Part shown: positions 12,263-17,121 of the stretch, in pieces
Layout: every line of letters starts with the position of its first letter
Numbering within the stretch: the stretch's first letter is position 1
Assembly (NCBI GenBank): GCA_900319375.1
Contig: ONOI01000013.1
Location: 1 to 38,857, forward strand
Length of the DNA stretch: 38,857 nucleotides
Origin: an uncultured Bacteroidales bacterium
Lineage (GTDB): Bacteria > Bacteroidota > Bacteroidia > Bacteroidales > UBA932
Direction: 5' to 3'
The notes under the pieces: generated by a model
The model's input: the letters and a program-made list of their open reading frames with translations, nothing else
Database searches by the model: none
What the model was told of the DNA's origin: nothing
Position numbers and translations under genes: made by a program

Positions 12263-12595
12263 ATGTACAAGGAAGATTACGATTCTTTCAGGGAAGAAAG
12301 AGGTTCAGATGACGTGTTTTCCAAACCCGTCAGAGCAGGAAAGCGTACGTACTTCTTCGACGTAAAGTCGACAAGGGGTCAGAAAGACTTTTACCTTACG
12401 ATTACAGAAAGCAAACGTCACAATAATCCAGACGGCAGCTTTACCTTCGACAAACACAAAATATTCCTTTATAAAGAGGACTTCGAGAAGTTCCGTGAAG
12501 GTCTGGACGACGTAATAGCTTACATCAAGGACAATTGCTTCGGCGGAGAGATTCCCGAGCGGCAGAAAGAAGAGTCCTCCGATGACAACTTTTAA
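12263..12595 (+). CDS. PUR-alpha-like DUF3276 nucleic-acid-binding protein
   Basis: A 110-residue protein, [14 protein letters not shown]. It holds one PUR-repeat pattern: [31 protein letters not shown], then [25 protein letters not shown] proteins bind purine-rich ssDNA or RNA; bacterial members such as the Borrelia protein EbfC-partner or BpuR are single-repeat homodimers. The cellular role in Bacteroidota is not established. A TTG three codons upstream is possible but less likely than the ATG. The 3' end overlaps the longest form of the next gene by 14 nt, so it is probably co-transcribed with the PNP pair. Confidence 0.82.
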
Positions 12596-13412
12596 CATGG
12601 ATACCTTGAAATCAGCCGCGTCTTACGTGGCTGATTTCATCTCCGGCCGCGAGCCGGAGCTGGGAATCGTGCTCGGAAGCGGCCTCGGTTCGCTCGCAGA
12701 CAGCATCGAAGACCCCCTCGTCCTCCCCTACTCCCAGATCCCCGGCTTCCCCGTCAGTACCGCCGTAGGCCACAAAGGAAACTTCATCGTAGGCAACCTC
12801 TCCGGAAAGTGTGTAATCGCCATGCAGGGCCGTTTCCACTTCTACGAGGGCTATCCGATGACCTCGGTCACGATGGCCGTAAGGGTAATGTACCTTCTCG
12901 GAGTCAGGACCCTCTTCGTCTCGAACGCCGCCGGCGGAATCAACCCCGAGTACCGGATCGGCGATCTGATGATAATCAATGACCACATAAGCCTGCAGCC
13001 CAACCCGCTGATCGGCCCGAATCTCGATGAGCTCGGTCCCCGTTTCCCGGACATGACCCGTCCGTACGATCCCGCCCTTATCAGGCGTGCCCGCGCAATC
13101 GCCGCCTCCCTGGGCTGGATGGTCCACGAAGGAGTCTATCTCGGCGACACCGGCCCCTCCTACGAAACCCCGGCCGAGTACAGGTTCTACCGCGCCGTAG
13201 GCGGAGATGTGGTCGGAATGAGCACTATCCCCGAGGTCATCGTCGCCCGCCACTGCGGGATGAGAGTATTCGGAATGTCCGTGGTCACAAACGAAGCCTC
13301 GGGCGATTTCGCCGAGGATTATCAGAACGACGGCGAGCACGTAGTAAAGGCCGCAGACGCTGCAGCCTCCAAACTAACCACAATATTCAAAGAACTAATC
13401 GCAACCCTATAA
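12582..13412 (+). CDS. Purine nucleoside phosphorylase, trimeric class, Asn-type
   Basis: Cleaves purine nucleosides with phosphate to the base plus ribose-1-phosphate. It has 276 residues, normal for the trimeric (PNP-I) class. Motifs visible: GIVLGSGLG phosphate loop, [36 protein letters not shown] (the Glu that contacts N1 of 6-oxopurines) and [27 protein letters not shown]. The last Asn is residue 237 (codon at 13290), matching human Asn243, which selects inosine and guanosine. Starts at 12582 or at the ATG 12597; both are in frame. The second copy follows 4 bp later. Confidence 0.93.
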
Positions 13413-13416
13413 CACT

Positions 13417-14244
13417 ATGTCTGAGATACTTACACCCTACCTAAAAGCAGTTGAATACATACGCACGAAAAGCGGCGGAGTAACCCCCGAGATCGGAGTT
13501 ATCCTCGGCAGCGGACTCGGTTCGCTCGGAGATCAGATCGAGAATCCCACGATCATCCCTTACAACGAAATCCCCGGTTTCCCCGTCAGCACTGCCATAG
13601 GCCACAAATCCCGCCTCGTCATCGGCGATCTCGGTGGAAAGAAGGTCGTAGCCATGCAGGGCCGTTTCCACTTCTACGAAGGCTATACGATGGAGCAGGT
13701 TACCTTCCCCATCAGGGTATTGAAGCTTCTCGGAATAAAGTATCTGTTTGTCTCCAATGCGGCCGGCGGCCTCAACCTCAGCTACAGGGTAGGCGATCTG
13801 ATGGTTATCAAAGATCAGATCAACATGATGCCCAACCCGCTGATCGGGCCCAATGCCGAAGAATTCGGTCCGCGCTTCCCCGACATGACTCATCCCTACG
13901 ACGTAGAGCTTCGCAGGCTCGCCCGCAAACTCGCCGGCGAGATGGGAATACACCTCCAGGAAGGCGTCTACATCGCCTGCACCGGTCCTTCGTATGAGAC
14001 CAGGGCCGAGTACAAGTTCTTCCGCACTATCGGCAGCGACGCAGTAGGAATGAGTACCGTTCCCGAGGTTATAGTAGCCCGCCACTGCGATCTGCGCGTC
14101 TTCGGAATGTCCGTTATTACCGACCTCGCCCGCGAGGACATGCCGGACGACTATGTAACGGACGGAGAAGAAATAGTAAAGGCGGCCAATCAAGCTACCA
14201 GCAAGATGACCGCCCTGTTCGAAAAGATGATCGCCGCTATTTAG
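13417..14244 (+). CDS. Purine nucleoside phosphorylase paralog, Asp-type
   Basis: A 275-residue tandem paralog of the preceding gene, with all catalytic blocks kept: [73 protein letters not shown]. The key difference is the final residue: Asp236 (codon at 14122) replaces the Asn237 of its neighbour. In human PNP, changing this Asn to Asp is known to bring adenosine acceptance, and MTA phosphorylases have Asp here. Altered base preference is therefore plausible, but it is inferred. The 3' end overlaps the convergent rny by 8 bp. Confidence 0.92.
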
Positions 14245-15775
14245 CGATAGCGACCGATCTGGTTTCTCTGATTACCGTAATCTTTACCTGGCCGGGATAA
14301 GTCATCTCGTCCTGGATGCGCTGCGCGATATCGGTGGAGAGGTGTGCTGCCTGCTCGTCGGTAATTTCGTCTGCGCCTACTATCACGCGAAGCTCGCGGC
14401 CTGCCTGGATAGCGTAGGACTTGGTAACTCCCTTGTAAGATGCGGCAAGGTCTTCCATACCCTTGAGACGCTTGATGTAGCTCTCAATAACCTCGCGGCG
14501 GGCGCCAGGGCGGGCGCCGGATATTGCATCGGCAACCAGCACGAGCGGCGAATAGATAGAGGTCATCTCCATCTCTTCGTGGTGTGAGCCGATCGCATTT
14601 ACGATCTCAGGGCGTTCCTTGTACTGCTCTGCCAGCTTGGCTCCGAGGAGAGCGTGGGGCAGTTCTTCGTCTTCAGTGCTGACCTTTCCGATATCATGGA
14701 GGAGTCCGGCCCTCTTGGCGATCTTCGGGTTGAGACCAAGCTCTGCCGCGAAGATGGAGGCGATGGAAGCGACCTCACGGGAGTGTTGGAGAAGGTTCTG
14801 CCCGTAGGAAGAACGGTATTTCATGCGTCCGATAAGGCGGACGAGTTCGAGATTCATTCCGTGGATTCCCAGGTCGATGCAGGTACGCTTTCCGGTCTCG
14901 AGGATTTCGTCTTCGAGCTGCTTGCTTACCTTTGCGACTACTTCCTCGATACGGGCGGGGTGTATGCGGCCGTCTGTAACGAGCTGGTGAAGAGCAAGGC
15001 GGGCAACTTCCCTGCGAACGGGATCAAAGCCGGAGAGAAGGATCGTATCAGGAGTATCGTCTACTACTATTTCGACTCCGGTAGCTGCCTCGAGAGCGCG
15101 GATATTACGTCCTTCGCGTCCGATGATGCGGCCCTTGACTTCGTCGTTCTCGATCGGGAAGGTAGTTACTGCATTTTCGATTGCGGTTTCGGTCGCGGTC
15201 CTCTGGATAGTATTGATAACTATTCTCTTGGCTTCCTTGGCTGCATTGAGACGGGCTTCGTCCATCGTGTCGTTGATATAAGAGAGAGCCTCGCTTCTGG
15301 CCTCGGCCTTCATATTCTCGACGAGCATTTTCTTCGCCTCTTCTGCGCTCATTCCCGCAACTGTCTCAAGCTGTTTGTTGACCTGAGCAGTAAGGGCTGC
15401 ACATTCCGCCTCTTTCTTCGAGAGCTGGTCTCTCTGGGCGTTTAGCTGGCCCTTCTGAGAGTCGAGGTCGTGTTGGCGGCGTCCGAGCTCGGACTGAAGC
15501 TGGTTCAGCTGGGTCTCTTTCGCACGGATATTGTTCTCACGGTCGCGGAGCTGATTGTTCTTCTCGCTTACCTTGTTTTCGTGTTCCTCTTTCAACTGAA
15601 GGAAATGTTCTTTTGCTTCGAGCATCTTCTTCTGCTTGAGAGACTCGGCTTCCAGAGTCGCTTTCTGGATGATGGCATCCCCGCGTCCTTTTGCGACGAT
15701 ACGGGTAATCCCTATGTAAAGTGCCAGTGCGAGAACTGCTCCCGCTACTGCTGCGATGATGATGTAAAGAATCAT
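14237..15775 (-). CDS. rny: Ribonuclease Y
   Basis: Membrane-anchored endoribonuclease that starts mRNA decay. The 512-residue protein has the full family layout: an N-terminal membrane helix ([21 protein letters not shown]), a long coiled coil rich in Lys/Glu/Gln to about residue 190, a KH domain around [21 protein letters not shown] (about 215-235), and an HD domain with the metal motif AGLLHDIGK (about residue 355) and SHHEE. It lies downstream of zapA and the 6S-like RNA on the same strand. No TAnnTTTG box is obvious in the 30 bp before the start, so it could be read through or use an atypical promoter after the terminator. Confidence 0.95.
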
Positions 15776-15805
15776 ACTGCTATATATATTGTGTTACGGT
15801 CAAAC

Positions 15806-15839
15806 AAAAAACAGTACCTGCAACTAATGCAGATACTGT
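15806..15839 (-). terminator. Intrinsic terminator after the 6S-like RNA
   Basis: On the minus strand, ACAGTATCTGCA-TTAGT-TGCAGGTACTGT forms a 12-position stem with one mismatch and a 5-nt loop (arms 15828-15839 and 15811-15822), followed by a T tract. The strongest free-standing terminator in the window. Confidence 0.85.
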
Positions 15840-15999
15840 CTTGTATAAATACCGTTAGTCCTTGGCTGAAACTTTCATAATGAAAGATTTGGGAGCCTCC
15901 CGGTTCAGGCTTCCTGCTGCGGGGCAGGCATGCTATCGACGGTGAGAACTTACCCGGTTCCGTAGAACTTGTTTGTTAGAGCAAGGAGGAACTAACGGT
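15840..15999 (-). ncRNA. ssrS: 6S-like regulatory RNA
   Basis: Between zapA and rny lies about 160 nt with no ORF that looks like a structured RNA. Minus strand: ACCGTTAGT (15999-15991) is a perfect complement of ACTAACGGT (15859-15851). Next inward, CCTTG (15986-15982) pairs with CAAGG (15864-15860), giving a long closing stem around a largely unpaired region, with an apical hairpin CCTGC/GCAGG (15928-15924 and 15917-15913). A terminator hairpin follows directly. 6S RNA has this long-range closing stem and central bubble, sequesters housekeeping RNA polymerase, and lies just downstream of zapA in many bacteria. Primary sequence does not prove it; structure and position support it. No TAnnTTTG box is seen before it, so it may be processed from the zapA transcript. 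Confidence 0.7.
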
Positions 16000-16294
16000 T
16001 TGTCTCTATTTTGTTCAGATAGGCCTTCAACTCCTTCTCGAGTTTAGCGGTTTCGTCGGTATTCTGCGCGAGGCCCTTTTTAGCCACGAGCATCGAGATC
16101 GTATTTGTCAGCGCCACGAAAACCAGTTTGTCTGCCAGAGTCTGGTCCGGATAACGTGTATCGTAATCCGTCAGCATCGAATTAATTTTTTCAGCAGCCA
16201 GTCTCATATAGTGTTCTGACTCCTGGGTGGCAACAAGGGTGTATTCCTTGCCGCCTATCTTGAGGGTGATGCTGTGTTTTGTTTGATCCGGCAT
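15992..16294 (-). CDS. zapA: Cell division protein ZapA
   Basis: A 100-residue FtsZ-ring stabiliser. It starts MPDQTKHSITLKIGGKEYTLVATQE and shows the family pattern: an N-terminal beta-alpha domain (ITLKIGGKEY, YMRLAAEKINSML), then a helix and coiled coil (DKLVFVALTNTISMLVAKK, AKLEKELKAYLNKIE). I chose the ATG at 16294, 2 nt after the coiled-coil gene's stop, over an upstream start that would overlap it. Its stop codon lies inside the 5' arm of the closing stem of the 6S-like RNA. Confidence 0.88.
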   Translation of the reverse strand: MPDQTKHSITLKIGGKEYTLVATQESEHYMRLAAEKINSMLTDYDTRYPDQTLADKLVFVALTNTISMLVAKKGLAQNTDETAKLEKELKAYLNKIETNR

Positions 16295-16296
16295 AA

Positions 16297-16566
16297 TTAA
16301 CTGGCAATCAGACGGATACACTTGTCAATCTCTTTGATGAGCTTATCTATCCTTTCTTTCGCAGCGGCTTTGTCTCCGTCTGCGGTAAAGGCGCCCGCGA
16401 GCTCGTACCGGTCTATCTGTTTTGTCAATTCAGTTATCTGCTGTTTGTACGATGCTGCCTCCGATTCCTTGACAACGAGCTTTGCGGCGAGCTCGTCACC
16501 GCGATGTTTCTCTGTCTCATACAGGGAAATCAACTGTTCGATGTCTTTTCGAAGGTCGTCAATCAT
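16297..16566 (-). CDS. Small coiled-coil protein upstream of zapA
   Basis: An 89-residue, highly charged protein almost wholly helical: MIDDLRKDIEQLISLYETEKHRGDELAAKL, then VKESEAASYKQQITELTKQIDRYEL, and AAAKERIDKLIKEIDKCIRLIAS. Heptad-like spacing of Leu and Ile indicates a coiled coil. It sits 2 nt before zapA in the same unit, so it may be a ZapB-like partner, as E. coli ZapB is an 81-residue coiled coil that binds ZapA. There is no sequence identity claim here; the role is inferred from size, structure and position. Confidence 0.75.
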   Translation of the reverse strand: MIDDLRKDIEQLISLYETEKHRGDELAAKLVVKESEAASYKQQITELTKQIDRYELAGAFTADGDKAAAKERIDKLIKEIDKCIRLIAS

Positions 16567-16572
16567 ACCCTA

Positions 16573-16580
16573 CAAATATA
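16573..16580 (-). promoter_or_regulatory. -7 promoter box of the coiled-coil/zapA unit
   Basis: Minus strand TATATTTG, an exact TAnnTTTG match. Only 6 nt separate it from the ATG at 16566, so the mRNA would be leaderless or nearly so. Confidence 0.6.
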
Positions 16581-16591
16581 GTTAATTTTCG

Positions 16592-17107
16592 CTATTTCGT
16601 AATCAATTCCACCGAATTCCTGTCGATTTGTACACAAGCAGCTCCAAGTATCGGAAGCCTGACTGCCAGGCAGTCCTTCCCTTCCACCTTAACAAGTTCT
16701 GCAACTTTCCCTTCAAGGGCTCCATGTTTTACCCTTACCAAATCTCCGGGACTGAGCGGACGGTCTATTAGAGCCACCTCGCCGCCAGCCGAAGCGACCA
16801 TCGCCATGAACGCATCCATCTGAGAGTCCGGCACTATCGCAGCCTTGTAACTTCCCGGCTTTTCGGTAAGATAGCGGGTAATATACGGGATCTCGGAGGC
16901 AGAGTTGCGGCGCTCCAGCTCGGTACACCGGACGAAGACCATATGTGGGATAAGCAAACGGTCCACGACCTTCTTCCTATCTGACCACTGCCTTACCTCT
17001 TTACGGATAGGGACAAACACCTCATAGCCCCGCGCAGAAAGAGCAGCAGCGACATTTTTATCCTGGCAGGAACGGGTATAGGCTATGTACCAGTGGAGTT
17101 CGTTCAT
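16592..17107 (-). CDS. UpxY-family NusG paralog (antiterminator)
   Basis: A 171-residue protein with a NusG N-terminal domain: HWYIAYTRSCQDKNVAAALSARGYEVFVP, followed by QWSDRKKVV and LLIPHMVFVRC, then a KOW-like C-terminal domain (LSPGDLVRVKHGALEGKVAELV). This is the UpxY type that in Bacteroides is the first gene of capsule operons and prevents early termination there. Here no capsule genes follow it, so its target is unknown. Its ATG at 17107 lies 6 nt after a TACTTTTG box; the TTG at 17116 is part of that box and was not used. Divergent from nadE. Confidence 0.85.
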   Translation of the reverse strand: MNELHWYIAYTRSCQDKNVAAALSARGYEVFVPIRKEVRQWSDRKKVVDRLLIPHMVFVRCTELERRNSASEIPYITRYLTEKPGSYKAAIVPDSQMDAFMAMVASAGGEVALIDRPLSPGDLVRVKHGALEGKVAELVKVEGKDCLAVRLPILGAACVQIDRNSVELITK

Positions 17108-17113
17108 AACATA

Positions 17114-17121
17114 CAAAAGTA
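17114..17121 (-). promoter_or_regulatory. -7 promoter box of the UpxY gene
   Basis: Minus strand TACTTTTG, exact TAnnTTTG match, 6 nt from the ATG. It faces away from the nadE box with 12 bp between. Confidence 0.6.

Follow-up and report, generated by a model that had tools for sequence, protein, structure and literature searches.

The minus strand of a 38,857-nt stretch of DNA from an uncultured Bacteroidales bacterium of the UBA932 lineage (contig ONOI01000013.1, assembly GCA_900319375.1), called here over its full length the window, very likely encodes the 6S RNA of this lineage at positions 16000-15850, in a divergent and so far unrecognised form. In other bacteria 6S RNA is a small RNA that binds and restrains RNA polymerase. 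An earlier note had proposed such an RNA at this place, and the proposal is now supported by covariation, by RNA models and by linkage to zapA, all of these being computational. Computation establishes the structure of the RNA, its conservation, its homology to the 6S families of Rfam, its gene order and the promoter pattern around it; the sequence of the RNA has diverged beyond what the standard Rfam models recognise. Taken together, the data make it highly probable that this is a single 6S RNA of the lineage, co-transcribed with zapA and the gene in the zapB position, released by RNases and bound by polymerase.

The locus

In minus-strand order, zapA comes after the zapB-position gene and is followed by the RNA, a terminator and rny. 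The features are as follows:

16573..16580, minus strand: TATATTTG, which matches TAnnTTTG, the likely promoter of zapB-zapA-6S (motif count in the genus)
16297..16566, minus strand: small gene in the zapB position, kept in relatives, coiled coil by eye
15992..16285, minus strand: zapA as scanned with Pfam (ZapA 51.5 bits, E 1.3e-13), with the ORF open from 16321
15850..16000, minus strand: RNA core, 151 nt (77.9 bits with model R3, built without the window)
15991..15999, minus strand: 5′ arm of the closing stem, overlapping the last zapA codons and the stop; covariation
15957..15968, minus strand: GUUC-UACG-GAAC hairpin on the 5′ side of the central bubble (fold)
15900..15942, minus strand: apical arm, corresponding to Rfam 6S positions 75-117 (RF00013 23.3 bits, cut-off 46.4)
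15872..15886, minus strand: CUUUC..GAAAG hairpin on the 3′ side of the central bubble (fold)
15851..15859, minus strand: 3′ arm of the closing stem, pairing with 15999-15991; covariation
15806..15839, minus strand: intrinsic terminator, hairpin 15839-15811 and U-run to 15806
14237..15775, minus strand: rny, RNase Y (Pfam RNase_Y_N, KH_1 and HD)

The small gene at 16297..16566 has no match in Pfam. The earlier note had drawn the RNA from 15806 to 15999; its position holds, with a core of 15850-16000, while the 15806 end takes in the downstream terminator. Two further observations concern the surroundings. A NusG-family gene (16592-17116, minus strand; Pfam NusG, 54.9 bits) comes to its end shortly before the zapB-zapA-6S promoter, and two similar adjacent ORFs on the plus strand (12582-13412 and 13417-14244), presumably tandem purine nucleoside phosphorylase paralogues, converge on rny.

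Fold of the RNA

The perfect 9-bp closing stem described in the earlier note is present with all nine Watson-Crick pairs (15999-15991 with 15859-15851), and the intrinsic terminator, too, was correctly recognised. The second, 5-bp helix that was said to extend the stem is only partly right: in the minimum-energy fold the 9 bp are followed by a bulge and a further 3 bp. When the 158-nt stretch is shuffled 1000 times by dinucleotides, an equally long perfect helix with a span of at least 110 nt arises in 5 cases; the 9-bp helix alone is not overwhelming, but the whole fold is. The RNA (15850-16000) has a folding energy of -50.5 kcal/mol (z -4.1), a value equalled in 0 of 200 shuffles, and together with the terminator (15806-16003) it reaches -71.4 kcal/mol (z -6.6). 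The minimum-energy fold branches the apical part; the alignments favour one long arm instead.

This rod, made of a closing stem, a large central bubble and an apical arm, is kept across 35 sequences of the window's genus and 18 from outgroups. As judged by eye, local hairpins recur at the same places in both bubble strands of many relatives, and the 5′ strand retains an A-rich AAACAACA/AAACUCAACA motif. The apical arm retains GGC..GGCC and GGA..CC. Two extra apical hairpins are seen by eye in the outgroups and in part of the genus and are missing from the branch of the window, which may be why the apical part of this branch resembles RF00013.

Conservation and covariation in relatives

The comparison covers 61 genomes, 37 from the window's genus and 24 outgroups from the same order. 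DNA BLAST of the RNA gives clear matches in the nearest relatives only, many weaker rows being short and probably due to chance, so the gene neighbourhood was used to find the RNA. Relatives were located by RNase Y in the 61 genomes, and by zapA in seven same-genus genomes in which the neighbourhood was broken or missing. The RNA lies 3′ of zapA in 35 of the 37 genus genomes; in the other two (G024 and G035, 58% and 72% complete) neither zapA nor rny was found. Pfam identifies the ORF before the RNA as ZapA in 34 of these 35 loci. The sole miss, probably G003, comes from the reading frame taken, and zapA was found there by tblastn. Where rny lies about 10 kb off (G023 and G027) or on another contig (G004, G011 and G031), the RNA is still behind zapA, the contigs of G004 and G031 stopping just past it.

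Among the 24 outgroups, 18 carry the RNA in the gap before rny, and Pfam recognises the preceding ORF as ZapA in all 17 scanned, G044 having no ORF to scan. By eye, the zapA-rny gap of the other six (G038, G046, G054, G056, G058 and G060) holds no such RNA, and these were left out of the outgroup alignment of 18 sequences; five of them (all except G046) carry the RNA elsewhere in the genome. The genus alignment holds 35 sequences, without G024 and G035. Alignment ends were set by script plus hand.

Covariation of the closing stem, which the earlier note had named as a check, was examined in the 35 relatives: 6 of 8 consensus pairs show two-sided changes, and 97.9% of cells are paired. Over the whole genus alignment, 94.8% of cells are paired, and 16 of 23 pairs change on both sides. 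The covariation score is 0.386, vs 0.163 (sd 0.010) in shuffles, none of 500 being as high; with partner columns slid it is at most 0.116, the structure coming from the same alignment, which makes this control partly favourable by construction. In the outgroups 23 of 33 pairs are two-sided, with a score of 0.397 vs 0.193 in shuffles, again with a structure taken from the same alignment.

RNA models and Rfam families

Because circularity had to be avoided, model R3 was built without the window and its nearest relatives. It consists of 31 genus sequences and leaves out the window, G009, and G006 and G031, the two relatives with the closest DNA match; it keeps G022, which is nearer the window than G009 by DNA match. 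Applied to the window, R3 returns exactly 15850-16000 with 77.9 bits (E 9.1e-20), the next best match there scoring 6.8 bits; the check by RNA models that the earlier note had suggested came out in favour of 6S. Model R2 has a single match at E≤1 across the whole genome of the window, i.e., one copy. As expected of 6S RNA, a single gene of about 150-200 nt with a defined 3′ end is predicted from the sequence (a 151-nt core, one copy). Model R1, made from the outgroups only, gives a non-significant 5.6 bits on the window RNA, and at E≤0.1 it reaches 12 of the 37 genus genomes and misses 25.

At the gathering threshold, Rfam finds nothing in the window. Against RF00013 the window RNA scores 23.3 bits in a match of 43 positions (cut-off 46.4; E 0.0059 for a search of 311 nt), and this is the only RF00013 match in its own genome. 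RF01693 and RF01685 give no match to the window sequence up to E 10. A hit to a different RNA family, which the earlier note had named as a reason to abandon its proposal, did not occur: besides weak chance matches, only 6S-type families were matched, namely RF00013 (6S), RF01685 (6S-Flavo) and, in relatives, also RF01693 (Bacteroidales-1). The matches discarded from the window at E≤10 (MIR5200, snoZ152, mir-7637, snoZ169 and PyrR207) are far under their cut-offs, that of MIR5200 covering the terminator hairpin.

Across the 61 genomes, RF00013 has five matches at E≤1, the window's own included, all on the zapA-linked RNA, and its cut-off of 46.4 is reached in none of the genomes. RF01685 has 13 matches at E≤1, all on the zapA-linked RNA, all full length and all under the cut-off of 85 bits (best E 3.3e-5, best in the genus 0.0043, best relative 42.9 bits). 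With RF01693, all 24 matches at E<0.05 fall on the zapA-linked RNA or on a relocated copy; at E 0.1-1, 6 of 15 are on one or the other and 9 elsewhere, as expected of chance. At E<0.05 this model marks the zapA-linked locus in 16 of the 37 genus genomes, the best reaching 54.6 bits (E 3.6e-8; cut-off 60), and finds no match at E≤1 in the genome of the window or in G006. No zapA-linked copy passes a cut-off in Rfam. The five sequences over the RF01693 cut-off are the relocated copies (G038, G054, G056, G058 and G060), which are Rfam Bacteroidales-1; five named records from Bacteroides, Barnesiella and Dysgonomonas also match this family. Its Rfam title reads "6S-Bacteroidales RNA suggested," the 6S status being only "suggested." Excerpts of PMC7366714 give dRNA-seq evidence for a 6S RNA and its pRNA in B. 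thetaiotaomicron, and we infer that this RNA is RF01693.

The homology is seen by profile in both directions, R2 and R3 finding RF01693 loci and RF01693 finding loci of the genus, though not the window itself. The genus model matches RF01693 loci over their full length in five genomes (E 8.6e-11 to 1.8e-5), and R3, tried on 11 RF01693-type loci, matches every one (E 4e-9 to 3e-4), ten of these being confirmed with RF01693 and one (L124) by DNA pattern only. At least 118 stretches were found; among those listed, five were run against Rfam and six against R3. Since the window sequence alone passes no cut-off, the link between its RNA and the 6S-type families of Rfam runs through the relatives.

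In a sample of 60 genomes from the class, R1 finds 23. RF01685 finds one, with a match that follows a ZapA gene, so this model is no useful yardstick for the class. The 25 class loci inspected comprise 24 from R1 and one from RF01685. There is an upstream ORF in 20 of these 25, and 15 of the 20 are ZapA, the others being transposase-like or without identification. Of 13 class-wide loci tried with R3, only five give a match (E≤1).

RNA ends, promoter pattern and proposed synthesis

Directly after the closing stem there is a run of at least four T in 30 of 35 genus sequences and in all 18 from outgroups. The window RNA lacks such a run and has instead the separate terminator at 15806-15839. A second hairpin with a T-run is found in 22 of 30 genus gaps and in 0 of 18 outgroup gaps. 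The long gap between the RNA and rny at L041 (G022) consists largely of short repeats such as CCCGGAACCCAGACCGGGAGAGCA and ACAACCGAA-like ones. At the 5′ end, zapA with its stop reaches 2-22 nt into the RNA in 24 of 35 genus genomes (with G003 taken in the frame matched by tblastn), and in the other 11 it ends 2-9 nt before the RNA. In the outgroups zapA always ends before the RNA, by 5-68 nt (17 of 18 measured).

According to excerpts of PMC7366714, TAnnTTTG is the -7 promoter element of Bacteroidetes, present at 81% of primary start sites in B. thetaiotaomicron and not at all of them. Within 100 nt upstream of the RNA, it is found in 0 of 35 genus sequences (0.2 expected) and in 2 of 18 outgroups (1.4 expected). 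All five relocated copies (L106-L110, from five families of the same order) have it in that range (0.5 expected), at 24-48 nt upstream. In the 80 nt before the zapB-position gene, it occurs in 31 of 33 genus genomes (2.8 expected) and in 11 of 12 outgroups (1.2 expected). Judged by this one consensus motif, the zapA-linked RNA shows no promoter of its own. As TAnnTTTG is lacking at the RNA but present before the zapB-position gene, the RNA is probably cut from the zapB-zapA transcript, and it is most simply seen as a 3′-end product of that message. The motif is likewise scarce between the RNA and rny (1 of 30 genus gaps and 0 of 17 outgroup gaps, the gap of the window being 15776-15850), so rny may depend on read-through past the 6S terminator.

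The expression, processing, polymerase binding and pRNA-driven release that follow are predictions from sequence. The zapB-position gene, zapA and the RNA would be transcribed together from the TAnnTTTG promoter at 16580-16573, transcription stopping at the closing stem of the RNA or, more likely in the window's genome, at the terminator hairpin 15839-15811. RNases would then release the 6S core, whose closing stem starts inside the last codons of zapA. The rod with its open central bubble would mimic an open promoter and bind the housekeeping sigma-ABfr RNA polymerase, holding it in non-growing cells until a short pRNA is copied from the bubble and the polymerase is let go.

A boxA-like motif and a proposed history of the locus

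Within 100 nt before the closing stem, 15 of 18 outgroups carry GTTCTTT, mostly as GTTCTTTGAAA or GTTCTTTAAAA (L063-L086; 0.16 expected). The motif is also found in 16 of 25 class-wide loci (L236-L255; 0.34 expected), and in 12 of the 15 among them whose upstream ORF is a confirmed ZapA. It is found upstream of the RNA in 0 of 35 genus sequences and 0 of 5 relocated copies; the window's genus lacks both the boxA-like motif and most of the spacer between zapA and the RNA. Excerpts of PMC7862264 give boxA as GTTCTTTAAAA, state that it is frequent in front of long non-coding RNAs, 16S for example, and describe its binding by the Nus complex, which raises processivity, perhaps by blocking Rho. GTTCTTT lies within 200 nt in two of three readable 16S leaders, a 16S sequence being present in only 4 of 13 genomes. 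The motif before 6S is read here as a putative boxA. The open-access literature yielded no report that brings together boxA, 6S RNA and antitermination.

A history for the whole class can be proposed, although we lean slightly against its holding in every part: the 6S RNA of Bacteroidia would ancestrally be the tail of zapB-zapA-6S-rny, a cell-division operon, with boxA, the boxA being lost in the window's genus and the RNA relocated with a promoter in Bacteroides. In such a history 6S would be made without a promoter of its own, and an rRNA-type boxA would allow a Nus antitermination complex to bring polymerase safely through the untranslated RNA. In the window's genus, boxA would have been dropped by shifting the closing stem onto or next to the zapA stop codon, so that translation of zapA may now guard 6S folding and compete with it. 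Bacteroides and its relatives would have moved 6S out and given it its own promoter. The neighbouring RNase Y may mature 6S.

Alternative explanations

The position of the RNA between zapA and rny, in front of a gap that is free of TAnnTTTG in 29 of 30 genus genomes and 17 of 17 outgroups, could also suggest a cis-acting leader or attenuator of rny, whose structure and terminator would set the read-through of polymerase into that gene. This is unlikely, since the RNA stays with zapA where rny is 10 kb off or on another contig (the five genomes named above), and since five same-order genomes have it at another locus with a promoter-like element of its own. Moreover, some of the genomes with relocated copies keep, by eye, a terminator-like hairpin in front of rny in the absence of the RNA.

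The RNA might otherwise be a structured, zapA-linked RNA that resembles 6S and has another partner or function, given that its 6S biochemistry is predicted only and that the Rfam models miss the window at threshold. We hold this to be very unlikely: three 6S-type models of Rfam place their best matches among relatives on the RNA or its relocated copy, RF00013 and R2 give no other candidate in the window's own genome, and the zapBA-ssrS order is that of beta/gamma-proteobacteria (PMC7641849, excerpts). Least credible, to the point of being nearly negligible, is the idea that the region is only the terminator of zapA and its long stem a product of chance. The helix length found in 5 of 1000 shuffles would allow it; it is contradicted by covariation, both across the 35 sequences of the genus and across the 18 from outgroups, by the match of the held-out model R3 (E 9e-20) and by the conserved motifs of the bubble. 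A 6S RNA of the lineage is therefore the preferred reading.

Significance and comparison with known systems

No Rfam 6S-type cut-off is reached in 56 of the 61 genomes, yet 53 of those carry the zapA-linked RNA, which fills the gap. The zapB-zapA-6S order of beta/gamma-proteobacteria is extended to another phylum, through Bacteroidia, and the open-access literature yielded no report of 6S RNA with zapA in Bacteroidales; the single paper there that mentions 6S RNA, Bacteroides and zapA deals with Alcanivorax. The locus also suggests how a regulatory RNA that lacks a promoter of its own might be made from the mRNA of a cell-division gene, most relatives outside the genus adding a boxA-like element; if true, the class-wide history would tie the supply of 6S to the expression of a Z-ring gene.

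The closest known family is Bacteroidales-1 (RF01693), which shares common descent with the window-type RNA and, by eye, the GGCnGGCC...GGAnnAC motifs. The two differ in place, as its five relocated loci lie outside the zapA-rny gap with TAnnTTTG upstream in 5 of 5, whereas the window RNA sits behind zapA; and, by eye, two small apical hairpins of Bacteroidales-1 are missing from the window form. 6S-Flavo (RF01685) matches the RNA of relatives over its full length, always below 85 bits, and leaves the window unmatched. With 6S/SsrS (RF00013; E. coli ssrS), the window RNA shares the closing stem, the central bubble and an apical arm with GGAAGCC. E. coli ssrS has its own promoters, whereas the window RNA shows none. 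That the earlier note was right to recall 6S RNA as following zapA in gammaproteobacteria is confirmed for beta/gamma-proteobacteria by excerpts of PMC7641849, in which ssrS comes directly after zapB-zapA, as the window RNA does. The gene that follows 6S/SsrS is ygfA or EVE, while the window RNA is followed by rny.
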